Assembly (NCBI GenBank): GCA_027604005.1
Contig: JADGJT010000187.1
Coordinates: 1 to 42,835 of the forward strand
Direction: 5' to 3'
Source of the DNA: Dinochytrium kinnereticum
Lineage: Eukaryota; Chytridiomycota; Chytridiomycetes; Chytridiales; Chytridiaceae
DNA length: 42,835 bases
A program made the position numbers and the translations under genes. Shown here piece by piece: positions 4,573 through 34,839 of the stretch (its first letter is position 1; every line of letters begins with the position of its first letter). The notes beneath the pieces were generated by a model that saw only the letters and a list, made by a program, of their open reading frames with translations, searched no databases and had not been told where the DNA came from.

Positions 4573-5913
4573 ATGCCCATTGCCAGGAGGATCCTCAGGC
4601 ACTTCATTCAGGGCCCATCTGCTATCACCGGCTTCACCTGCGATCGCAACCTCACCACTCGGATAGCGAGAGGCGCTGTCGCTTGTTCGCCCCTTGGCCA
4701 TCATCTCCCGTCCTCATCACCGTTCGGAGCGTTCACTGGCCCGCATCACCTCCGCCGCTTCACCTCAGCAACAGAATCACAGCAGAACGACGATGCACCG
4801 CGCATTCACTTTGTTAAAGATGAGGCCTATCTCACTATGGACGTCGGGAGCGCAAAGACCACTTTCAGGGTTAGTGTGCTATTTGCTCGCTATTTGCTTA
4901 AAGTGTATCCCCACCAAGTTTGTTTCCCCAAATCAAACGCATCTCCCATATACAGCGATGGACCTGCATTGCTATCCGTGGCTGCTAAATGCACTCAAAT
5001 GGCCTAATTGAAAATTCTAGGTATACGAAGAGAGGCCCATTTCAAACCTCCTTGCCGCACTTCACGAGGAAGATCCCGCTTTAAACGTAGTGTCCATCCG
5101 AGACGGTACTGGACCTGACTCTGCCCGCTGGGCCCGATCAACAATTGGTTCGGACATTCTCGAGGTGGCCATGAAGAGAGGAGAGCTTGCTCTTGATTTG
5201 AATGGGAAAACATTGGCTGTCCAGGTGCAACCTCTTCATGAAAGATTGGAACCACTGGACAGAGAGATGCTGTCAATAAAAGAGGAGCTGCAGCCTTTAG
5301 AAGAGAGAAAGCTGGCTCTGGACGCGGCAGCCGAGCGTAGGGCCAGCATGGTTAGCTGGGCAGGTTTGCTATGGCTCTGCGCACAGTGTAAGGCCTTTTC
5401 CTATTGCTGAACATTTCATATTTGACACTCTTAAAATACTGACTGACCTTGGTCATCTTTCAGTGGGAATTATGGTCAGGCTTACATGGTGGGAATATTC
5501 ATGGGTGAGTTCCTTATTTGTTTGTTGCTGGGGTCCTTTCGGCTCACATATCCATTTTCTTAGGATGTGATGGAGCCGATATCGTACGTTCTCTCAGCAG
5601 CGACTGGAATCATGGCGTACTGGTTTTTTGGTATCTAAATCTCTTTCTTCTTTGTGTTGTACTGTTCCCATAAGTCGCCACCATGTTGATACTTTTCATT
5701 TTGCGCGAAACAGTGCTAACGCGCAAGGAATATACCTACGAGGTTCTTCATGAGCTTACTGTCAGCAACTCACAACGCGCACTTTACGCGAGAAAGAAGT
5801 TTGACTTTGTCCGATACTCTGAGCTGAAGGAGAAGCTACGCGAACTGGACCACAAGAAGGAGGACCTTTACGAGCTGTACGGAGTGGATGAGCCAGCCCC
5901 TCCCACCCTCTAG
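4573..5913 (+). CDS. MCU: Mitochondrial calcium uniporter pore subunit
   Basis: Five exons (4573-4869, 5021-5387, 5464-5504, 5564-5630, 5714-5913) give 323 residues. The Arg-rich, acid-poor N-terminus (MPIARRILRHFIQG) looks like a mitochondrial presequence. A matrix domain follows, then coiled coil 1 (LEPLDREMLSIKEELQPLEE). TM1 reads WAGLLWLCAQLGIMVRLTWW, then comes the selectivity-filter motif WDVMEPISY (about residues 235-243; the family's WDIMEP with Ile to Val), TM2 and coiled coil 2 (FDFVRYSELKEKLRELDHKK). The filter Asp and Glu are present. The Trp of the filter ends exon 3 and the Asp starts exon 4. MCU carries Ca2+ across the inner mitochondrial membrane. Many fungi lack MCU or keep it without EMRE; no regulator gene is visible here. 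Confidence 0.95.
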
Positions 5914-6473: not shown

Positions 6474-9400
6474 ATGGGTCAGTTTAACTACTCGGAGGGG
6501 GAGGCCCTTCTGGGCAATACCTCCATCAACACACCAAAGAAGCATGAGCAACGGAGGGGGTTTGTCAAGTGCGCAGGAAGGGTTGGCCTGGCGTTGTTGG
6601 CTTTGATGACCGCCGGTGGCATCGTTATGTACTCGTTGAGGAACAGGAGTGTTCAATCGCAGGTTTGTTAAACCCCGCACCTGTTGAAGGCGGCACTGTT
6701 GACCTAACTGTCACCCCTTCGCTATATGTTGTTCAGATTGAATACTTCAAGGAAAGCTTGACCGACTACGCCATTGGTAAGCGAGTCAAACTTGAATAAG
6801 ATTCTTTGCTAACGTGCGTTTAAGGCCTTGTAGGAGAGCCCACGACGTTCCAGTGCTCGGGTCACGGTGTTATCACAACACGCGGCGAGTGTCTGTGCGA
6901 TCTTGGCTACACTGGCCCCTCATGTTCCGACATATCATCAACTGGTACTTTTTTTTAACGTTTTGATACCAGCTTACCATGAAAATATTTAGACTCACCT
7001 CTTTCCGTATCAAATCCCAAATCCGTCTGCATGGTCGTTGAGAACTTTGGCTTCATGGGTGATGCCCGTGACGGTCGTGGTCACTCCCAGGCTGAGCTTG
7101 CCATGTCAATGTCTAGGCGAGGCTATGAAGTCACTGTACTTTATGTTGGTGCCGAAAATGGTCAACTTGCACGTATGGCAGAAAAGTTTGCAGAGAGAAG
7201 GGTGACCATCATTCAGTAAGTAACTTGAGAGGTTCAGTTCTTTGTCATAGAATCTGGACTGTGCATACTGACAAAATATGTTCTCAATAGACTCCCGTCA
7301 ACCGGCGTCAACCTAGGGAAGCAGTCCGTCGAAACAGTGTCCTACGAAGTTTACCAATACCTTTTGCGAACACCCGCCTTTTCGCATGTCATCTTTACCG
7401 CTTCTAGTGGCACGGCCTACTATACGCTACAGGCACAGAAGCAAGGTCTCCTCTGTTCGAACACTCGCTTCATTGTTGGTGTTGACAGTCTGTCAAAGGG
7501 TGCCCAGGAGCGTATTGAGTCTGGAGATCCCGAGTACCATCCTGTTGCTGTCGACACTCTCAAAAATGACTTTTTGACCCAACAATCTATTGAGATGGCT
7601 GTAAGACAACATCGTTTTCATTTGACTGAGTTTTATTGATGCTAATTAAATTTTGTTTCCATCTTTAGGACACTGTCGTATTCTCTTCCAGCCTGTTGGT
7701 TGATGAAGTTCGCGCTGAAGGTATCAATGTCAAGGCTAGCCGCATTATCAGCAGTCTTCCACCTCAGTGGAGGATTCCTGAGAAGTACAAGGCTACCCAA
7801 AAGGCGATTAAGGAGCTTGTTTTCGTTGGTCCTATGACGATTTCAGGCGGTATCAAGATTTTCTGCGATGCCCTTGACCAGATTGCTGGTCATATTTCCA
7901 CCCAGGGAATCAAGGTTACCTTTCTTGGATTCTCATCCTCCGTCCTAGACATGACCTCCGAGGAGTATATTGAGCTTCGTGCGCTGGCATGGGAGTCTTA
8001 TGATCTTCAGTGGACAATTCAGACCGCTGATAGCTTGAAGAGCATTCTGAACTACATGTCGACTCCTGACCTGGACAAGGTTGCGGTTATGCCTTCGGAG
8101 TTTGACTCTTTTGCTGGTATTTCTCAGATGCTCTACTACTCAGGAGTCCCCTTTATTGGTTCATCGATGAGCGCAATCAAGGAGATTATCGATATCGCCG
8201 ACCACAGCCGCATGATCTCTAACCCGGATGGTGTGGAACTCTCGACTAAGATTAGCAAGGTTATAAACGGAGCCTGTAAGTTAATCCTCTGTTCATCTTC
8301 GTTAAAATCTACTTACAATATTGTTACCTTCAATATGAATAGCTGCCATCTCCAAGCCCCGAACAGAGCCTAAAGCCGTCTTCAGCAAGTGGCTTGAGAT
8401 CCTTCAGGAAAAGACAACTAAGACCTGCATCCGCAGTTATGAGGAGCTTGAGGAGAAGCCACTTGTGTCTGTCGTTATTGTCCACCACAACCGTCCGAAG
8501 TTCCTTCAGCAGACTATCGAGTCCATCAACGCCCAAACCTACAAGAACATTGAAGTAGTCCTTGTTGACGATGGTTCGACTGACCCTGAGGCAATCAAGT
8601 ACCTTGATGAGATTTCATGGAAGTGGTGGGAGGAGAAGGGTTGGAAAATTCTTCGCGAGCCGAACCGCTACCTTGGATCTGCGCGTAACACTGGTGCCAG
8701 GAATGCGGCCGGAAAGTTCATTCTCTTTGTTGACGATGACGATTACTCCAAGCCCCACCACGTCGAAACTCTTGTCCGTGTAGCGGTCAATACTAAGGCT
8801 GAAATCGTTAGCTCTGGCCACGATACCTTCTCGGGTCTCCGCCGTCCTACATCTGGCAAGGCTGGAGAGCGATACGTCCCCATCGGAAAGGCTAAACTGG
8901 CTGGTATGCTTGAAAACGTCTTCGGAGATTCGTCTATGATGATCAGGAAGGAGTACTTCGCAATCTCAGGCGGTTTTACTGAGGACAGAGGCGTCGGATT
9001 TGAGGATTACGAATTCTTTGCTAGGCTTTCCCTTACTAACGCTACGATGGAGGCGGTCTCAGAGCCTCTTCACTGGTACCGTCGTCACAGTCAGACTATG
9101 TCGACTAAGACGAACCTCAAGGCGAACCAGCTTCGTATGCTTCGTCCCTACCTTGCCGCTCGAGGTGTTGTGCCTCCTGAAGAGAAAGCCGTCCTTGAGC
9201 ACACCCAAACCCTCTTCTTTGAGCGCCATGGTATTTCATCCGCTGAAGAAAGGGCCTTGTTTAGGGAGGCTCAGGCCAACAACACTCAGCCATCTCCCAG
9301 GCCCAAACCTTCACCTGTCAAGATTAGCTGTGAGGCCTACCTCGACCAAAGCGGTGCTTCCGGCTTTCAGTTTGGTACCGTAAAGGTTTGGACCGACAAG

Positions 9401-12400
9401 GTTGCTTCTTGGTAAGTATTTATTTCCGTTAGGCATCACTCTCTTTTGTGTTCTAAAAACATCCTTTCATCAAATTAAAGGTGCTGGGACTTCGGAACAC
9501 GTTCCACGCTCAGTGATAAGAAGGATACCGCTGCCTTGATTATTCCCTTCCTTCAACCGATTTACCCTAACGGCACTTCAGCCGGAAAGGGCGTTATCGC
9601 CTCTCTTCCTTGCCAGGCCGGTTATTCGGACGCTTTCGCTATTATCCAAGTGGTTGTTGACAAGAATGCTGAGTTTGACGGGGTATTTATACTTCTAAAT
9701 TTTTGGACTTAACTTTGTTACTTTACTTTTGATGTGAACTAACATTGGCATGAACACATCCTCAGTTCAAGGACTACACTTCTCTTTTCCTTGGATCTCC
9801 TTTGAACCAATTCTACCAACAAGAGAGCTTCTACAACTACCCCTTGGTCCCACCCGGAAGTAGGACCATCAACTTCTCCCCGAAATCGGATCTTCCCATG
9901 CCTCAAATGAAGCAGGCGTGGTATGAGTAAGTGCCTTAACCTTTTCATAAATATCGAACGAATGTTTGTCGTGCACTAAAGACTATGTCATTAGAAAAAA
10001 GCCGGTTTTCTACTATGACATGGGCAAGATTCCCAACCTACCCATCCAGGCAGGTTCGGCGTTGACATCGTTTGCTGTGGATGTCTTGAAACAGGGTGCC
10101 ACCTTTGGCTCCCCGGTTCTTCAGTACGGCCTTAGCAAGTCCACCGGTTTCTACGCGTATGTTCTAAATCGCGGTTTTATGTTTATCTGTAAATTATGCG
10201 ACTAACTTTACTCAAAAAATGTAGTTCGAAGTTCATCGACGTCTCAGCTCTTCCGTCATACAAGGAGGATGACTTCAAGTCTATCGACCAACTCGGAACC
10301 CCCTACCAACCCTACGACCAATCCCGTATCTGGAACTGTCCCATTGCCTTTACGGAGGTTCTTTCGAGCTCACGAGGAGATGAGTTCAAATTTGATGGTC
10401 TCGAGCCCTCGGTTATTCCCAACCTTCCATCAGTCAAGATTATCCTTTCGGGTTCAGGTTTCTCGAGTTCAAACGTTATCTACATCAACCAGGCTCCTGT
10501 CCCGGCTGCTAACGTCACCTTACTCAGCAGCTCTTCAATCGCGGTCGACATTGATGCTTCTGTATTCCCCGGTACTAGCGGGCTTGTAACCGTCTACATC
10601 GACGACTCTCTCTCGTACGATCTTTACTACTACAACTCAAAGGCTCAGATTCTTTCGATCGAGGCACCAAGCCTGTACACTGGCCTTGCCGATCAGGCGG
10701 TTTCTATTAAGGGTCAGTTCCTTGCTGACTTCCCCGACTCGATTTGTGTCTTCAACACTACCGTTGAGGGTGTGTCGACTCCTCTTACTGTGGAGAACTC
10801 TACATACGCATCTTGCCCTCTCCCAGAAGTTGAGGAATCGTCATTCTACAGCGTAAATGTTCTTTTCTCGAAGCCGAAGTTCAACGTACCTACAAATAAG
10901 CTAGCCATCCCTGAGGAGAGTTCGGATCTTAACCGCCAGGATCTTTTCGTTCCGCTTGCTGCTAACGCTTCCAACTCTTTGAAAGTGTTGGCTCCAGCGC
11001 CTAGGGCTGTCTATGCTGAGTTCCTTCAGTCTGGTGGTAGTATCTATGTTCAGCTTGACAACCCGGCAACCGTGATTGACTTTAATGCCTACCAGAACTC
11101 TAAGGTGGTCAACCCGAGGGATATCGAGGAGCCGTTCCCTTGCTCGTGGATTTTCGTTCCAGACCCCAAGGGCGGAAATGTTGTTCCTGGTAAGCTAAGT
11201 CGCGAGAACAAGGATGACGATTGCTTGGTCACCATGCTGTCTGCATCTGAGTTACTCTTGGAACTTAGTGCCGAATTCACCTCTGCTGACAAGGATGCTG
11301 TAGCTCCTTTGAGGAGAATCTATATTCGCTCCGGAGCTCTTTGGTATGAGGGTGCAGACTTCTCCGAAACCACTTCGAGCTTCGTGACAGTGCAGGCTCC
11401 GGAGGAGATTGAAACTCCCGTTATCGAGATTAACGCGCCTCTCTACGTTGCTGCTTGCTCTGACATTGTCCTGGACCTTTCGGAGACGACCGGTCATCTT
11501 GGGCGTCTATTCACGTCGGGTCAGATCTCTTACTCGAGCCCTAGTCCTCTTCCAACTGCCCAGGATCAGTCATTGACCAGCGCGTTGGTTGCTGGTTTCA
11601 GCGACTACATGGCTGGAAAAACTGATTCAATTGTTGTCCCTGCCTCGGCTCTGTGGACCCCTGCTGGAGCTGACTTTATGACCTACGCTTTCACCATTAA
11701 GGTGGTTAACTTTATGAATAAGGCGGCTTCGGCCACGGTTTTGGTCAACCGCATGAACGACAACTCTGCACCTTACGTCGTAGTCAACGACCCCAGCGGT
11801 AACCCATCTGCCGGAGAGGCAATTACTGTGGTTGCATCAACCGACCCTATCTGCAACATCCGTGATGGTATTTCTTACCGATGGTCCGTTCAGAGTTGTC
11901 CTGGCCTATCAATCCCGTCTTCGTTCTCTAACGCGGAGCTTTACATCGCACCGTTCACTCTTGCCCCAAACACCAAGTGCGAGCTGAGGATTGAGTCGAA
12001 GTACACGAAGGACTCACTCTGGAGGTCCTACCCTATCTCTTTCACCACACGCAGAGACGTTTTGATGATCTCCCCTGGCCCTTCGAGGACAGTGAGAGCT
12101 GACCTGGACTTGATCATCAGCGCTGAGATTTCGGTTGACGCCTACTCCACTGAGCCCTCGAACCTCCAATGCCGATGGGTCTGTGTCGCCGGCGGTGGTC
12201 TTTGCAGCTCGGCCTTAAGCTCAAGGCTGACCTCATGCCGCAACAACGTTATTCCCCGTGGCACTCTTACTCCTCAGGTCTACAACTTCACCGTCTCTGT
12301 GACTAACCCCACTACGGGATCCACGGCTACTAGCAGATTCAGTAGCCTCATTACTGTCGTCTCGAACAAAGTTCCTGCGGTTACCATTACGCCATCGCAA

Positions 12401-14437
12401 GTCTTCCCCTCGGCCAACTCTGATGGTTTCTCAATTGAGGCAATTGTTGACTCTTCGTCCGTCTCATCTGTCTCATCTCTTGTCTACAAGTGGGGTAACT
12501 GCGCATCGAATGACCCGAGGGTGTCTAGGATCGACTTCAATAGGACCTCTAACTTCGCCTCCGACATCAAGAGCCGTGACCTCAGGACCTTAAAGTTTGC
12601 TGCTGGCACCTTGAGGCCTGCTGCTAGATACTGCGTGTCAGTTGCCGTTACTGATGGCACTACCAACGGCTATGCCGAGTACAGGTTCGTAACCAGAAGT
12701 GCTCCCGAGGCCGGATTCTGCCAGATGAGCGGCACTAAGTACCAGTGTATTGGTTTCACCACGGATCCGCAGTCGTTCCCTCTTTACTACTCATTCTTTG
12801 TCCGCAGTGGGAGCGACCAGCCTTGGAGTCTTGTTCAGCCTCGGTCTACCTCTTCTATTTTCGATGCGTCGACCTTAGCTGGTGTCTCGTATCAAGTTCA
12901 AGCTCAGGTCTCCGACGCTGCTGGATCAATTGGTCGATGGGATAAGGTCGAGACAGTTTCTGGTGGTTCTAGGCTGCGAAAGAGGCAGGCTAGTTGCGCG
13001 ACGCCATCTTGCATCCTTAACCAGGCCATAACGAACTACCAGCAGACAAAGAACGTTGCGGCTGCCGAGCGAGCTTTGGGTATTGCGACCTTGTCCATTA
13101 AGCCTTCGGACAGCAACTTCGGTTTGGCTATGCAACTTATTAATTCGATCGCCAATGATGTGACCGTTGATACTCAGGTGCACGGACCCTTCCTAGTCAA
13201 TCAGTTAAGCAACATTGTGGGTGCCGGCTATGGCCTTCAAAAGAGTGACTGGAACTCGGTTATTACTCTAGCAAAGCAATTGATAGTTAGTATCAAGAGC
13301 AGTGGAAAGGCTGAGGTCCCGGCCAACTGTGTTGGATCTGCCTCTTCATCCCAATTGTTGGCGATTGTTGATCAGATCTATGGAATGGCCGTTTCTACTT
13401 CTCAGAGCGATGCTGACAAGAAGGACCTCCTAATTAAACTCTCGGATGTCCTCGGTCACGTTGAGACTTGTACTGCCAGAAGGAAGGCTGCCCAGGAAAA
13501 CCCCTTGACTTTCGCTTCCAAGTATATGGGACGTCGTATTGGTGTTACCTTCGTGGATCAAGCATCCTCTTACTGCAGCTTTACTGTTGGAGCCAACCAG
13601 GTCGACACGTCATCGAAGACTGTCACTTACGGCTGCGGTAGCTATGACGCGAAGGTGTTCCCTAACAACTCAGCTGTTTTCGACGCCAACCCGATCTTAA
13701 CTGATGTAGCCCTCTGGGATGTGAGGCAAGAGATGTCCGTCGGCCTGAAGGGAGTTATTGTCACATCTATTCCTATCGAAAACAGCTTCGATGCTAAATA
13801 CAAGCTTAGCACCTATGTCATCCCCGACCCTGACAACGCGAACGCCATCGACTACTCGAAGAACAAGTACCCGGACCAAAGCTTCCGCCCTCAATGCTCA
13901 ACCTTTGACTTGAAGAGTCAGGAATGGTCAACTGACTCATGCATTCCTCAAAGGGTCGCTGGGAACGCCGTGGAATGTAGATGCAACAAAGTTTCCACTA
14001 TCGGGCTTGCAGCAAAGGCTATACCGCCCCCGTCGGACGTCAGCGTAAACAGCAGCGGCTCCTCAAATGCGGGTGCTATTGCTGGAGGTACTATTGCGGC
14101 TGCGATTGTCGTTGCCGCCATTGCAGGTCTCGTGTGGTACCTCAGGAAGAAGGGATCCGCAAACAAGACTAAGGAGGCTCCTCTTCCCACAACCACGACG
14201 CAGGCGGCAGCAATGTCAAAGAGGCTATCAAAGAAGGAGTCTCAGATTGAAAAGTCCGCCGCGATCGCGTCCAGGACGTCAGATACGACTCCTGGAAGAA
14301 CGGCGGAGGAGCTAGAGATCGTTGTGGACAATGCTCCACTGGCGGTTCGAGCGTCTCGTGCGCGCGCCAAGCTTCCTGAATACGTTCGCCCTCCCTCGTA
14401 TGAGGAGCATTTGTCGAGGAGAGGACGCTCCAAATAA
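6474..14437 (+). CDS. Giant membrane glycosyltransferase fused to a REJ/GPS-like adhesion ectodomain
   Basis: Eleven exons (6474-6662, 6737-6776, 6825-6944, 6993-7215, 7291-7600, 7669-8275, 8343-9411, 9481-9682, 9766-9926, 9995-10156, 10225-14437) give 2431 residues. Order: short cytosolic N-terminus, signal-anchor TM (37-55), EGF-like module (CSGHG...GECLCDLGYTGPSC, about 84-113), GT-B/GT4-like domain (about 128-496), GT2 domain (about 538-760; VVLVDDGSTDPE, then FVDDDDYS as metal-binding Asp cluster), an unassigned region, an IPT/TIG-like sandwich (about 1090-1166), a long Ser/Thr-rich REJ/PKD-like region (about 1425-1940), a dibasic RLRKR site (about 1944), a GAIN/GPS-like Cys module (about 2252-2290), a second TM (about 2309-2335) and a basic tail with PPSY. 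Two TMs would put everything between them in the lumen or outside the cell. Domain calls beyond GT2 and EGF rest on motif shape. The fusion lies in continuous exons: exon 11 alone holds 1400 codons. Confidence 0.85.
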
Positions 14438-23835: not shown

Positions 23836-25311
23836 ATGGTCGAGGCAACATCCGCCGATAGACCTGCGGGAATCATTTATCCCCCACCGGAAATTAGACA
23901 AGTGGTGGATAAAACTGCCAACTATGTCGCCAAGAATGGAGGGCAATTTGAGGAACGTATTAGAGAGGACAGGAAGCATGATCAGAAGTTTTCGTTTTTA
24001 AATCCGAATGACCCTTACAGGGCATATTATGATATGAAGGTAAAGGAGGCTAAGGAAGGAAACGGTTTGTTCTTTTGTTTTTTTAAGGTTGCATTTTTTT
24101 TGGGAGTATTAACCAGACTTTAACAGTGGAGGCGAAGAAAGAGGATGTTGAAAAGGTTTGGTGAATTTTGTTGTTAGTATGTTAGCTCATATCATCTATT
24201 AAGACCAAGGAAAAGGAAACCGCACTTCCAAAACCCGACGCCAAACCCATCATGAAGGAACCTCCTCCCTACGACTTTATTGCCGAAATGCCAAACATCT
24301 CCGCTCAAGACCTGTAAGAGCACCGTTATTTTCATCCTCCAAATATTTTTCCATTCTAATGACTGAATAAAACAGTGACGTCGTCTGCCTTACAGCCTTA
24401 TTCGTCGCCCGTAATGGTTTACAATTTCAAACCTCCCTGGCACATCGCGAACAACGGAACTTTCAATTTGACTTTTTGAGGCCTACGCATAGTCTTTACA
24501 GTTATTATAGGAGTCTTGTGAGTCAGTACGTTAAAGTGCTTGCTCCTCCAAAGCCGATGATGAGTAAACTCCAAACGACGATGGAGAATAAGTATTCGGT
24601 GAGTTTTTCTTTTCTCTCAATAAAGGGGGTTGACACGCAGCGAAAGGTTTTGGATAGGATCTCGTCTCGGGTGGAGTATGAGCAATTTGTGGCTGACGAG
24701 AAGAAGAAGGCGGAGGCGGAGGCTGATCAGGAGAAATGTAAAGATCTGCATTTGACGCTGGTTACTGACCCATGCTAATAGTGGCTTATGCTATGATTGA
24801 CTGGCACGATTTTGTGGTTGTCGAAACGGTAGAATTTGTCGACGCAGACGAAGTCCTTCAACTCCCACCGCCCATTAGCATTATGGACCTTGAAGGGCTC
24901 TCACTTGCCCAAAAAAGAAGTAAAAGCTTATTTAACACAGCGCCTATCTCCTCACAAGATGGCGAAGACGACGGAGATATGGACATTGAGGTACATAACC
25001 GCTTTAATATTGCCTTTTCCCAACCTTTTCTTTTCTTTCTCTTTGTGCAGGGAGAAATCGACTCCGCCGCTACACGCAATATCACTCAACCCCTCCCACC
25101 ACGTCCTCAACTTCCTCCGCAACCTCGACCTCCTTCGTCTCTCGGGGCGCCGCTACCCCGACCTCCAATGCCACAACTTCCGAATGGCCCGATGTTTCGA
25201 CCGCCCCCGAGGCTTCCGACCTTTCCCCAACCAGGTTCCAAGCCGACTGCAGCGAGGGCATATGAAGGCGATGGGGAGGACAGTGATGCGAAGAGACAGA
25301 AAATACCTTGA
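23836..25311 (+). CDS. SF3A1: Splicing factor 3A subunit 1 (Prp21)
   Basis: Seven exons (23836-24064, 24127-24155, 24204-24313, 24376-24598, 24641-24737, 24782-24990, 25051-25311) give 385 residues. Two SURP modules are clear: IRQVVDKTANYVAKNGGQFE with PNDPYRAYYDMKV, and DVVCLTALFVARNGLQFQ with DFLRPTHSLYSYYRSLV. The family block VLDRISSRVEYEQF and the invariant YAMIDWHDFVVVETVEF follow. The C-terminal third is Pro-rich (PPRPQLPPQPRPPSSL). SF3a belongs to the 17S U2 snRNP and helps the branch site pair with U2. The ubiquitin-like domain at the C-terminus of animal SF3A1 is absent, as in yeast Prp21. Exon 2 is only 29 nt. Confidence 0.92.
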
Positions 25312-28054: not shown

Positions 28055-28216
28055 GGAATTCCGATAGCATTACCCTGGACCGTTTTGAATGTTTCAATCG
28101 TGTAATAAATAGTACCTTAAAACACCTTTGATGCATTGGTAAAGTCTTGATGCCTAAACTCAAATTACTTTTTTGAGTTTGTCAAAAGTTGTCTTTGATT
28201 GTCGTCGGGGTCTGAA

Positions 28217-30517
28217 ATGGAGACGTTGAAGCACCTCAATGAGCTCTCGCTCATGTCCCAACGCCTCGACATGCCCTTCCTGCAGCACTTCTTTAAAACA
28301 TTTGATCCCGAAACAGACAAAAACATCGCATCGACCCTCTCGCACTTTCATCTGCGTGAAAACCTCGAGACGACAGATTACCGCTCCGCCTACCACCAGC
28401 TCTGCGATTGGTTCTACGGATGGAATGTTACGGATGGAACAGACTTTTCGACGGAAGCTACCGAGCACTTTCGCATGAAAAGAGTTCCAAGGGACATTGA
28501 TATCAAGGAGAAGGGGGAGCGGTTGGAGAGCGATCGTATCATGAAAACGTACGAGACGCTCTTCATCATAAGTCGCAGAGCACTCAAAAGGATTCATTTG
28601 GAGATTGAAGAAGAGGTTCTTAAGATTGGCACAGGTTTAGGAACCATGGCCACTCAAGGAGGTCGTGAAGAGGATGAGGAAGCAGCGGATCGTGATATTG
28701 ATAAAGAGAGTTTATGGAAGCAACGGAATGAGTTTGAACCTCTTCATAATCAATACCGGGATGAGGATATGGATGATGAGATTGAGGATGAAGATGATCT
28801 TGCTCATTTCACTGCCCTGGAAAGGAGGGTTTCGAGGGTATCGGATGGGATGATAATTAGAAGGAAATCGTCGGTCGCTGCCAATAATCCTGCAAAGCAT
28901 AATCCTGTTCAAAAACTTCAGGCACCTAATGAGTTAGACGAAGTTGAGTCATCAAATGAGGGGATCACATCAGGAGATCACGCTCCGGTCGTTGATGCAT
29001 CCCCTAAAAGCTCTCGAGCTTCGACTCCAAAGACCGAGCTGGCGAGGAGCCCCTCGGACGCCCCATCCATCGAAGCAAACGACGGTAGAAGACAATCCGT
29101 CGCTGCATCCACATCCCGTCGCCAAAGCGTTTCCTCAACAGCAAATCAAGCCTTCCAGTTCTCCCTCGTCAAACCTGTTCATGGACTTCTCCGGCACTCC
29201 AGCGATACTGAAGAAAGCCGTAAACTGATGCAACGCGACATAAACCACATCTACAGTCAAGCCGATCGGTCCATCGACTTTACCCTTGTCTGCGTGTCGA
29301 ATATCTTACTGATATTGGGGTTCTCAGAAATGCTGGACGAACGAGCTACTTTCGAAAAGTACTCTGCCCTTGTTCATGACATTTCGGCAGAGTTTGTATC
29401 GAATACTATGAAGACTGTTTGGGATCTGTTGAACAAGGAGTTGCCCACTCGGATGGATCTGGAAAATCTTCGCAACCCTGACCTTCTCAAGCAACGTTTC
29501 AAAGACGTCATCGACTTGCGTTCAAGTTCCAGTCGCGCGCCTAGAAATAAGATCAAAAAGCTTTACCGAAAGTTCATCCTCATCCACGAACTTCTCATGG
29601 CCTTCGATATTCACATCTTCCCCAACTTTGTCGCCGCACATAAAGAAGGCATAAAGTGCTGCGAATTCTCGGGATTCGATTCATCGCTCTGGTTAACAGG
29701 AGGTTATGACTGCGTTCTAAGAATTCACGATATCCGAGCCTCAAACTCTCACATCTGTCTCGCCCAATACGTTGGTCATAAATCCATCATTACCGATGCC
29801 CGGTTCGCAAAGGAAGACACCATCATCATTAGCTCAAGTTTCGACCGTACCGTTAAAATATGGAACGCCCAATCCTCGTCATGTGAGAGAACTCTTGTAG
29901 GGCACACAGATTCCGTCACGAGCTGCGATATCACCCCAGATGGACGGTATCTCGCTTCCGGGTCCACCGACAACACCATTCGCTTGTGGGATTTCAACAC
30001 TGGTGAATGCCTCTTTGTAATTAAGCGGCACACTCGGTGGGTAAAACGCGTAAGGTTCTCCCATGACGGAAGATACCTAATATCCGCCGGGCTTGACTGC
30101 AAAATGTACACATGGGACGTTAAGTTTCTCCTCAGCGCAAAAGCCGTCTCCCACACTCGATGCATCGAATCGCACACCGATTACATCCTCGATATTGCCA
30201 CATTTAAGCCAACAACACTCTTAAGCACCGGTAGGGACTCCACTGTGCGGGTTCATGACTTTTTGACTGGCCAGGAAATGATTTGTGTGGATCTCTCACC
30301 AAGTTGGGCTTGCACGGTGGCTTTCTCGACGGATGGGACTTATTTTGCCACGGGATCGTTTGACAATAATATTAATATATTTACTGCGGCGGATGGGGAG
30401 AGAGTGCGAGAAATACGTGCGTTGAATTTGGGGATTATGTGTGTAAGGTTTCCGAGGGACCTTGAGTATGTTGTCGTGGGGACTGTTGAAGGGTTTTTGC
30501 AGCAAATATTTTTATGA
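28217..30517 (+). CDS. WD40-repeat protein with long N-terminal extension
   Basis: Single exon, 766 residues, one of only two intronless genes here. Residues 1-130 are helical (MSQRLDMPFLQHFFKTF), then comes an acidic stretch (DEDMDDEIEDEDDL), then a Ser-rich disordered part to about 320, a helical domain (320-470) and six or seven WD repeats to the end. Clear blades: VGHTDSVTSCDITPDGRYLA with GSTDNTIRLWDF; RHTRWVKRVRFSHDGRYLIS; SFDRTVKIWNA. WD propellers are scaffolds; no catalytic site is expected. I cannot name the orthologue. An earlier in-frame non-ATG codon exists at 28199, but the ATG at 28217 is preferred. Confidence 0.8.
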   Translation: METLKHLNELSLMSQRLDMPFLQHFFKTFDPETDKNIASTLSHFHLRENLETTDYRSAYHQLCDWFYGWNVTDGTDFSTEATEHFRMKRVPRDIDIKEKGERLESDRIMKTYETLFIISRRALKRIHLEIEEEVLKIGTGLGTMATQGGREEDEEAADRDIDKESLWKQRNEFEPLHNQYRDEDMDDEIEDEDDLAHFTALERRVSRVSDGMIIRRKSSVAANNPAKHNPVQKLQAPNELDEVESSNEGITSGDHAPVVDASPKSSRASTPKTELARSPSDAPSIEANDGRRQSVAASTSRRQSVSSTANQAFQFSLVKPVHGLLRHSSDTEESRKLMQRDINHIYSQADRSIDFTLVCVSNILLILGFSEMLDERATFEKYSALVHDISAEFVSNTMKTVWDLLNKELPTRMDLENLRNPDLLKQRFKDVIDLRSSSSRAPRNKIKKLYRKFILIHELLMAFDIHIFPNFVAAHKEGIKCCEFSGFDSSLWLTGGYDCVLRIHDIRASNSHICLAQYVGHKSIITDARFAKEDTIIISSSFDRTVKIWNAQSSSCERTLVGHTDSVTSCDITPDGRYLASGSTDNTIRLWDFNTGECLFVIKRHTRWVKRVRFSHDGRYLISAGLDCKMYTWDVKFLLSAKAVSHTRCIESHTDYILDIATFKPTTLLSTGRDSTVRVHDFLTGQEMICVDLSPSWACTVAFSTDGTYFATGSFDNNINIFTAADGERVREIRALNLGIMCVRFPRDLEYVVVGTVEGFLQQIFL

Positions 30518-32811: not shown

Positions 32812-34800
32812 TCAGCGCTTGCCTTTCTTTTTATTATTTCTCAACACATTAGGTTTGTCCTCAATGACAATCGTTCCCCCTTGCAGCTCATCCTTTAGGG
32901 GGCTTTGGTCAACTTTTTGTTGGGTTTCGAGGTAGAACATCAGGTCACGGACTTGGTCGGCCATGTCCGCGAGAGCCTTTTCTTTCTCCTCCAGCTCCTT
33001 TTCTTTCGCTTGGAGTTGCGTTCTCCAGGAATCTTGGTTACGTCTTAATGCCTCATTGATCTCCTTTTCCTCCTGGTACTTGGTCTCAAGGGTGTTAAAA
33101 CTCTCGGAAAGCCGGTCAATACGCCTCTCAAGTACCCTCTTCTCCTTGACCACAGCGGTCATCTGGATACGAAGGCGATCTAACTCTTTTTGCCTTTCGT
33201 CCGTGCTTTCCTGTTCATGCGGCTTTGGATCCACCGCACTTGCCTCAGATATTTGGTGCACTAGAGACTGCTCAAGCTCTGCCATTTTCGACTCATACCA
33301 AAGCCTTTGAGATTCTAGCTGGGATATAAGAATGTAACTATATTCCAGCCCCATCTCGTCGGATTTTGGCCCAGGATATGGAAGCAACCCGCCCAGACGA
33401 TTTTCCATATCAGCGACAGGAGCTGGAAGCTCAACAAGCTTCCCATCAGCCTTATTCTGAATCAACCTGTGCACGTATCCATCCCCTGCATAGTCCCAGA
33501 CGCGTTGTGTCTCAATCTCTAAAGCGTACGTATGACTTGTTTCATTGAAATGAGCCGCGGCATGGGCAGCTTGATATCGACCGCATCCGAGATTCCCACA
33601 AATCAGACATATCCATAAATTCTCTTTCGACCCACAATCCGCGCACTCGTTTGAGCTATCCTCTTCCGCTCTTTTCGAATCTTTCTGACAGTATCGGCAT
33701 ACAGGGCACGAGCTATCCTCCCACTTGCTGAGACAATGACAGTGGAATGTGTGCTGACAGAGGATGGTTAGAAGCCCCGTGACTGAGGAATCCATCCGGT
33801 CAAGGCAAACAGGACATATTGGCATTTCAACCATCTGCTCTTCTAATCTTTCAGTTACCGTCCCTTGCGATGGCGATATTGTTTGAATCCCAAGGTGACT
33901 GTTTTTCAGACCGTCTTCTTGAGGAATAACCAAGCTGTTCTTCCGCAGTGGTGTGATGCTGGTGCCAGGCAATGTGTCATTGTCAGAGGTGAAGGCGAAC
34001 GATGGTATTACTTGCGACGTGAATTGAACGTTTTTAACGTAAACCACGTGGCAGACTTCTGAATCAAGGGAGTTGAATCTCTTCCCTGAGAATTGACGAT
34101 AAAACGAATCTGTAGACCGAGAGTCTCTCAGCTTAATCAATCCAATGAAACGGTTGGGTATAGAATCGCGAATGATTCGGATATGCGATATGTTTTTTTG
34201 AAATGGTCCAACAAAGCTGAGAAAGTCTTGGGCCGTCATGTAGGAGGGGACGGAGAGAACGCATAGGACGTTTCCTGGGCCCTTAGCATCTTTCACTTCT
34301 TCCCGGCTGAAATTGCCTTCCCCCACGTCTGATTCCCTCGTCTTTTCGAGAATATCGGGAACCTCTGATTTGTTTCTGTAGAGATGCAGCACTCCAGCGT
34401 TGAGCTGTGTTGTGCCCTTTCGAAAAGGGACGAATACACCACTTGTTTGCTGAAATGCCGGAGTGGCTCCTGAAGGCTCCGGGCTATCCCCTTGACCAGC
34501 ATCAGCCTTCTGACACTCCCCTCGATCCTCCATAACCTTACAATCTCCCGCCGATTCCGGAGGAAAGTCAAACCACTCCACAGTAAGGGATCCGAATCTC
34601 CTGTTGTCCAGAATGCTTTTGACGCCAAAGGGCCTCGCAATCTTCCCGTGCTTCACCTTCTTCTTCAAGCGCTGGATGGAGCCCACACGATACGACGGCA
34701 GAAGTTCCTCAAAGATGTCTGACGGCAGGAGGTTGGCCTGATGGGCGGTGGGGGTGGCTGCAGGCAGGGCGATATCGAATGCCAAAGTGAAGAGGAACAT
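32812..34800 (-). CDS. BRAP: BRCA1-associated-protein-type E3 ubiquitin ligase
   Basis: Single exon, 662 residues. Order: N-terminal extension; BRAP2-type RRM-like domain (about 178-250; NVLCVLSVPSYMTAQDFLSF, then IRIIRDSIPNRFIGLIKL); RING-H2 (about 325-370; CPVCLDRMD, CQHTFHCHCLSKWEDSSC, PVCRYC); ZnF-UBP (about 382-445; CADCGSKENLWICLICGNLG, CGRYQAAHAAAHF, HTYALEIETQRVWDY); long coiled coil (about 490-625); basic end NNKKKGKR. In animals BRAP (IMP) binds ubiquitin C-termini through ZnF-UBP, is a cytoplasmic retention factor for NLS proteins and damps Ras-MAPK signalling by blocking KSR scaffolding. All zinc ligands are present. It is divergent from the FSIP1-like gene (39 bp). Confidence 0.93.
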   Translation of the reverse strand: MFLFTLAFDIALPAATPTAHQANLLPSDIFEELLPSYRVGSIQRLKKKVKHGKIARPFGVKSILDNRRFGSLTVEWFDFPPESAGDCKVMEDRGECQKADAGQGDSPEPSGATPAFQQTSGVFVPFRKGTTQLNAGVLHLYRNKSEVPDILEKTRESDVGEGNFSREEVKDAKGPGNVLCVLSVPSYMTAQDFLSFVGPFQKNISHIRIIRDSIPNRFIGLIKLRDSRSTDSFYRQFSGKRFNSLDSEVCHVVYVKNVQFTSQVIPSFAFTSDNDTLPGTSITPLRKNSLVIPQEDGLKNSHLGIQTISPSQGTVTERLEEQMVEMPICPVCLDRMDSSVTGLLTILCQHTFHCHCLSKWEDSSCPVCRYCQKDSKRAEEDSSNECADCGSKENLWICLICGNLGCGRYQAAHAAAHFNETSHTYALEIETQRVWDYAGDGYVHRLIQNKADGKLVELPAPVADMENRLGGLLPYPGPKSDEMGLEYSYILISQLESQRLWYESKMAELEQSLVHQISEASAVDPKPHEQESTDERQKELDRLRIQMTAVVKEKRVLERRIDRLSESFNTLETKYQEEKEINEALRRNQDSWRTQLQAKEKELEEKEKALADMADQVRDLMFYLETQQKVDQSPLKDELQGGTIVIEDKPNVLRNNKKKGKR

Positions 34801-34839
34801 TCGCCTTAACCGGCTGTATCACTCACTAGCCTCAGCAAA
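34801..34839. promoter_or_regulatory. 39-bp bidirectional promoter BRAP/FSIP1-like
   Basis: 39 bp separate the two start codons; the interval contains no clear TATA element. Confidence 0.45.

Follow-up and report, generated by a model that had tools for sequence, protein, structure and literature searches.

The window that we analyzed, a contig of 42,835 nucleotides taken whole from the assembly of the chytrid Dinochytrium kinnereticum (22.4 Mb, 558 contigs; Chytridiales, family Chytridiaceae), carries a gene for a predicted protein of 2431 residues in which a GT-B and a GT2 glycosyltransferase (GT) domain are joined to an EGF-like module and to a stalk of IPT, REJ, and GAIN domains, and this coupling is conserved. 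The explanation that we favor, to which we give about even credence, is a two-span membrane glycosyltransferase conserved among chytrids, whose GT2 head would be active in the secretory lumen while the REJ-GAIN stalk would hold and regulate it. It builds on what was established directly, namely, the gene model, the domain set and its conservation, intact GT2 residues next to degenerate GT4 and GPS residues, and a GAIN fold in the predicted model.

One gene and its chytrid relatives

The frame opens with an ATG at 6474, stays continuous over 11 exons separated by GT...AG introns, and closes with a stop codon ending at 14437. A preliminary description of this DNA had proposed exactly such a single 2431-residue frame, and the spliced translation is indeed letter for letter that of the public protein HDU67_002921 (P0001). 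An alternative acceptor of intron 2, which would shorten the protein by three residues, was set aside, since P0002 and P0004, both close relatives, align ungapped with the longer version.

6474..14437, + strand: gene, 11 exons, 2431 aa, translation identical to HDU67_002921
6474-6662, 6737-6776, 6825-6944, 6993-7215, 7291-7600, 7669-8275, + strand: exons 1-6
8343-9411, 9481-9682, 9766-9926, 9995-10156, 10225-14437, + strand: exons 7-11

BLASTP found 29 proteins, from which 11 (P0001 to P0011) were taken as the family; the 18 left out are 15 large proteins with common GT domains and 3 reelin-type proteins with common EGF domains. When 10 of these 15 large proteins were rescanned with the GT half, the matches lay mainly in the GT2 part. 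Incomplete members are kept in all counts unless stated (P0003 lacks the N terminus, P0005 and P0009 the C terminus). A phylogenetic survey, suggested in the preliminary description, thus has a positive outcome: ten further chytrid proteins, at 33 to 66% identity, share the joint architecture. Nine come from the Chytridiales (two Phlyctochytrium species, Irineochytrium, Zopfochytrium, Podochytrium, Obelidium, Entophlyctis, and Chytriomyces hyalinus with two proteins) and have BLASTP query coverages of 84 to 100%; the tenth, from Quaeritorhiza (Chytridiomycetes incertae sedis), has a coverage of 32%, and its stalk was recognized through multiple alignment and its H-L-T triad. In P0002, 9 of the 10 exon junctions are ungapped against the window protein. 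Trees of the GT half and of the stalk half both place Dinochytrium with the two Phlyctochytrium species, followed by Irineochytrium, and Zopfochytrium beside the Chytriomyces group, inside which the branching order differs. Since the main groups agree, a single fusion with later vertical descent fits.

At an E value of up to 0.01, Pfam recovers GT2 in 11 members, EGF in 9, GPS in 6, REJ in 4, and TIG in 1, and Glyco_trans_1_4 and Glycos_transf_1 in 4 of the 11 each. Because they are found in so few members, REJ and GT4 lie near the limit of single-sequence detection.

An intact GT2 domain beside a degenerate GT-B domain

6851..6928, + strand: EGF-like module, aa 86-111, exon 3 (PF23106, 1.2e-6, 9 of 11 members)
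7016..8353, + strand: GT-B, GT4-type domain, probably non-catalytic, aa 125-500, exons 4-7 (PF13692 and PF00534 in 4 of 11 members each)
8468..9133, + strand: GT2 (GT-A) catalytic domain, aa 539-760, with DDGS, DDDD, and GFEDYEF (PF00535, 11 of 11 members)

Conservation in this protein is highest in the GT2 domain. Its Pfam match (PF00535, aa 539-668) reaches 9.6e-28 and 97.6 bits against a cut-off of 23.3, and DDGS, DDDD, and FED are invariant in all 11 members; we take the Asp residues of the first two to bind nucleotide and metal and FED to supply the catalytic acid. Its nearest solved relatives by sequence are K4CP, PmHS2, and CgT. The domain would probably transfer sugars inside the secretory lumen. 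Elsewhere in the genome, a 1162-residue open frame (L029, G000:C75:25500-31500) holds a further GT2 match and also aligns with residues 602-759.

Recognition of the GT-B domain is of another order: in the window protein, the match to a GT4-type N-terminal domain (aa 150-319) has an E value of 0.007, under the Pfam cut-off, and the fold match to GT4 enzymes was made on a weak predicted model. The structure alignment of the GT region took in 7 of the 11 members. The donor site of GT4 enzymes consists of an Arg, a Lys, and an E-x7-E motif. In a register set by weak alignment and by eye, the Arg, the Lys, and the first Glu are replaced in all 11 members, and the second Glu is replaced in 10, being kept in P0011 only; the four positions hold P or S, G or N, D, and M, S, A, T, or E, respectively. 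As these residues are replaced, the GT-B domain is probably a non-catalytic partner of a working GT2 enzyme. Of the two glycosyltransferases in the preliminary description, accordingly, the GT2 enzyme with its DDGS and Asp cluster holds (PF00535 near 1e-27), and the GT4-like domain is a weak fold and profile match that is probably not an active enzyme. Two active enzymes in one chain was set aside as unproven, the GT4 residues being lost.

A REJ-GAIN stalk and its predicted processing points

In the following list, L024 and L025 are two loci of the same genome that match the stalk and have no GT match.

9329..10396, + strand: Cys/Trp-containing module, aa 826-1085, exons 7-11, no Pfam family
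10403..10927, + strand: IPT/TIG-like modules, aa 1088-1262 (TIG in 1 of 11 members; profile match to L025)
10994..11851, + strand: pre-REJ region without Pfam match, aa 1285-1570 (profile matches to L024 and L025)
11852..12931, + strand: REJ domain, aa 1571-1930 (PF02010, 6e-16; genome match at 11852-12934)
12971..12985, + strand: RLRKR, predicted Kex2/furin-type site, aa 1944-1948, in the loop between REJ and GAIN
13007..14026, + strand: GAIN domain, helical then beta subdomain, aa 1956-2295
13988..13996, + strand: degenerate GPS triad K-V-S (not H-L-S/T), aa 2283-2285

The EGF-like module and the REJ region of the preliminary description both exceed their Pfam cut-offs, the latter with 58.5 bits against 25. 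Its IPT-like region is borne out in part, through TIG in one member and the profile match to L025, the other 10 members being without a TIG match. A Pfam search assigned no family to the Cys/Trp module, part of which recurs at three loci (L026, L027, and L028 on contigs C330, C207, and C229).

The GAIN domain, with its GPS fold, was seen in the predicted model and by comparison of a family profile with solved GAIN domains of adhesion G protein-coupled receptors (GPCRs); the structure alignment of the REJ-GAIN region took in 6 of the 11 members. The preliminary description had tied its case to a REJ/GPS fold in structure prediction and had named a GPS-like Cys module. The GAIN/GPS fold is present, and what fell away in the window protein is a Pfam GPS match, which 6 of the 11 members have, and the cleavage triad. 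A search of the organism's own genome for the GPS family gave no match, but the control was also silent, so nothing follows from it.

Self-cleavage at the GPS requires an H-L-S/T triad. Ten members extend into the GPS region, and 5 of them keep this triad intact, all as H-L-T (P0004, P0007, P0008, P0010, and P0011); P0006 has H-L-G, and the triad is lost in P0001 (K-V-S), P0002 (Q-I-A), P0003 (Q-A-A), and P0005, while P0009 ends before the GPS. The last C-x-C stretch of L024 and of L025 is likewise without H-L-T. With its triad lost, the window protein is unlikely to cleave itself.

The RLRKR site lies where the preliminary description had it, in a part of the model (model residues 303-311, aa 1942-1950) with a pLDDT below 50. 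Linkers with at least two adjacent basic residues occur in 6 of the 11 members (P0001 to P0005 and P0011) and follow lineage. A link between such sites and loss of the GPS triad was considered and set aside: they occur in four of the five members with a changed triad and in two of the five with an intact one, in keeping with lineage. Loci with an S8 plus a P-domain on contigs C7, C29, and C33 fit Kex2-type proteases.

Two predicted membrane spans and two short tails

6495..6512, + strand: EGEALL, acidic dileucine-type motif, aa 8-13, N-terminal tail
6582..6638, + strand: first transmembrane span (TM1), predicted signal anchor, aa 37-55 (hydropathy 1.95; 6 K/R in the 15 residues before, 3 after)
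14078..14134, + strand: second transmembrane span (TM2), aa 2313-2331 (hydropathy 2.37; K/R 0 before, 5 after)
14390..14401, + strand: PPSY, WW-domain ligand motif, aa 2417-2420, C-terminal tail
P0006 2391-2409, P0007 2378-2396, P0008 2375-2393, P0010 2404-2422 (protein positions): extra hydrophobic stretch, by hydropathy

Hydropathy agrees with the signal anchor and second span of the preliminary description, these being the sole regions of the window protein above 1.6, and the direction of the flanking charges is alike in the 10 members with a TM1 region and the 9 with TM2. If TM1 is a signal anchor, as predicted, both short tails would be cytosolic and the interval between TM1 and TM2 lumenal or extracellular. 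In 8 of the 11 members, a [DE]xxxL[LI] motif lies within the N-terminal 60 residues. PPxY occurs in the C-terminal tail, which follows TM2 for 100 residues in the window protein, also in 8 of 11 (P0004 has PPTF; P0005 and P0009 lack the tail). We take these to be a dileucine motif and a WW ligand, respectively. The Pfam scan found no signalling domain in the window-protein tail. In the genome, a stretch at a contig edge (G000:C152:4-1714) encodes, on one strand, three WW domains and then a HECT domain, a Rsp5/Nedd4-type ligase that fits a reader of PPxY.

A proposed model for a lumenal enzyme on a REJ-GAIN stalk

We propose the following model. The EGF-like module, the pseudo-GT4 and GT2 domains, and the IPT, REJ, and GAIN domains would all be lumenal or extracellular, with GT2 as the working enzyme and GT-B as its non-catalytic partner, by analogy with the GT-B domain of human EXT2. 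The stalk would be a spacer with a processing point, cut by GPS self-cleavage in species with H-L-T; in D. kinnereticum, a Kex2-type protease acting at RLRKR would make the sole cut. After either cut, the enzyme would stay on TM1, and the piece that carries TM2 and the PPxY tail would be released. The dileucine and PPxY tails, acting through adaptor complexes and a Rsp5-type ubiquitin ligase, may set the dwell time in the Golgi, endosome, and plasma membrane. A lumenal role in the Golgi is no less probable than a cell-surface sensing role during zoospore adhesion.

Several observations weigh against this model. AlphaFold modeled the GT half poorly, with a mean pLDDT of 58.7 and values below 50 in the C-terminal half of GT2. 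K357 of the GT-B domain, kept in 10 of the 11 members, could stand in for the lost Lys, so that GT-B may stay active. TM1 is weak in P0008 (1.52) and P0010 (1.45), and the dileucine and PPxY motifs are short. Four members from the Chytriomycetaceae (P0006, P0007, P0008, and P0010) have an Ala/Val-rich stretch of hydropathy 2.1 to 2.3 between TM2 and PPxY that could be a third span, in which case their PPxY tail would not be cytosolic. Finally, two of the five members with an intact HL[ST] also have dibasic linker sites, so that compensation for GPS loss by these sites is not demonstrated.

Alternative readings

The strongest competitor, put forward in the preliminary description, which we consider possible but clearly less probable than a lumenal enzyme, is a cell-surface enzyme-receptor on the zoospore or rhizoid that binds or builds a glycan and signals inward through GAIN, TM2, and the tail. 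REJ and GAIN do occur in animal surface receptors, the C-terminal tail is conserved, and the Ser/Thr-rich frames upstream of the GT-less REJ-GAIN paralogues, provided that they are part of those genes, point to mucin-like proteins at the surface. However, sugar nucleotides are scarce outside cells, the Pfam scan of the window-protein tail shows no signalling domain, and this species has lost the GPS triad. A further idea, which we think unlikely, is a receptor-enzyme of the Chytridiales at the cell surface or in the Golgi in which pulling or cleaving the REJ-GAIN stalk switches or relocates a polymerase-type sugar transfer. If true, GAIN mechanics would in fungi steer an enzyme rather than a seven-span receptor or channel.

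The enzyme head might instead be a carbohydrate-binding or adhesion module that transfers no sugar, as the loss of the GT4 residues (save the second Glu of P0011) and the long IPT/REJ stalk would allow; we regard such an adhesin as improbable, since all 11 members agree at every GT2 catalytic position checked, and GT2 is the best conserved region. A different membrane crossing that leaves the GT domains in the cytosol, where many GT2 polymerases work, is very unlikely: several relatives do have further stretches above 1.6 outside TM1 and TM2, but the window protein has none between its two spans, the same interval carries EGF, REJ, and GAIN, which are all folds of the extracellular kind, and the flanking charges also speak against it. 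An annotation that fused two adjacent genes is rejected as highly improbable in view of recurrence in ten more proteins, the ungapped junctions of P0002, and half-trees that agree in their main groups.

Relation to known systems

Work on GAIN domains has dealt with them as components of adhesion GPCRs and polycystins. Adhesion GPCRs (ADGRB2/B3, ADGRL1/L3, and ADGRF1) have seven spans after GAIN, whereas the window protein has one, has lost the GPS triad, and has a GT enzyme head. With polycystin-1 and the sea-urchin REJ receptors it shares what we take to be their layout, REJ and then GAIN/GPS near the membrane; unlike them, it has one span after GAIN and a GT head, and Pfam at E values up to 1 matched neither the eleven-span channel part of polycystin-1 nor PLAT. 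EXT1 and EXT2 also have a membrane anchor followed by a GT-B and then a GT-A domain. The window protein differs from them in its GT4/GT2 families, with no exostosin (GT47/GT64) Pfam match at E values up to 1, and in its huge C-terminal stalk and second span. The GT2 relatives named above, the chondroitin and heparosan synthases K4CP and PmHS2 as well as CgT, are bacterial and without such a stalk, and the synthases have tandem GT-A domains. No solved REJ or EXT entry was recognized among the structure matches listed, which is no evidence of a difference.

The preliminary description knew of no protein that couples these parts. The coupling is conserved in sequence, and we found no account of a GT plus REJ/GAIN architecture in the open-access literature, subscription papers being mostly outside this coverage. 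Within it, we found no paper on the REJ domain with fungi, Chytridiomycota, or a glycosyltransferase and none joining GAIN with a glycosyltransferase domain; the papers listed for GAIN with fungi and adhesion GPCR evolution treat receptors, judged by title, and those listed for polycystin and chytrids include none on this architecture, judged by title and the start of the abstract. According to parts of a 2025 survey in eLife, the complex GAIN-bearing N termini of adhesion GPCRs are a holozoan trait, GAIN itself being older (PMC12716839). The relevant parts of a 2012 survey of fungal GPCRs describe adhesion-type receptors in fungi and do not mention this kind (PMC3251606), and portions of a 2019 paper on rumen fungi describe a polycystin-1-like Gal_Lectin domain, a different domain, in Neocallimastigomycota (PMC6712302). 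The GT-B domain of EXT2 is reported to be inactive in passages of PMC9675754.

The present case places GAIN and REJ in fungi and couples them to an enzyme, with a single-span anchor in the window protein and conservation throughout an order. Such proteins would offer a simple, non-GPCR setting in which to ask what GAIN does alone, and they would put forward a candidate enzyme behind the surface glycans of zoosporic fungi, about which little is known.

Probable origin of the architecture

The two GT-less paralogues, L024 (G000:C137:20500-30400) and L025 (G000:C34:38800-48700), are profile-matched stretches without gene models. Both match the pre-REJ, REJ, and GAIN profiles (GAIN weakly in L024, 7e-5; IPT in L025 only) and have one hydrophobic span by eye; a profile search of these stretches for GT gave no match. 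They differ from the window protein in having CGxCxGxGTxC modules and Ser/Thr-rich open frames, perhaps of other genes, upstream of the REJ-GAIN part. In the Quaeritorhiza protein, the interval from the enzyme to IPT contains a Ser/Thr-rich stretch along with a CGVCGGDGTTC module. Because a Quaeritorhiza-like module and Ser/Thr-rich frames precede REJ-GAIN in the GT-less paralogues, the enzyme head was probably joined onto an older, mucin-stalked REJ-GAIN protein, and the Chytridiales probably replaced its mucin part later on with the aa 826-1085 module, as far as these few sequences indicate.

Among 7994 scored candidates (about 447 to 1421 aa, E up to 1e-20), the search for a free-standing protein related to the GT half gave only the distant P0030, which has three GT2 domains and a separate GT4. 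A stalk-only search returned just P0001 to P0003; it missed known relatives and hence cannot show absence elsewhere.

Neighboring genes

A scan of the window for Rfam families and tRNAs found none. Upstream of the gene lies an exon of a mitochondrial calcium uniporter (MCU) (5237-5407, PF04678, 2e-7), and the next MCU exon, at about 5564, reads D-V-M-E-P-I-S-Y by eye, near what we take to be the DIME motif of MCU. The other neighbors are ordinary: a PRP21-like splicing factor (24769-25308), a WD40 protein (28199-30514), a BRAP2/zf-UBP/RING protein (32815-34818), and ribosomal protein L4 (36671-37381).

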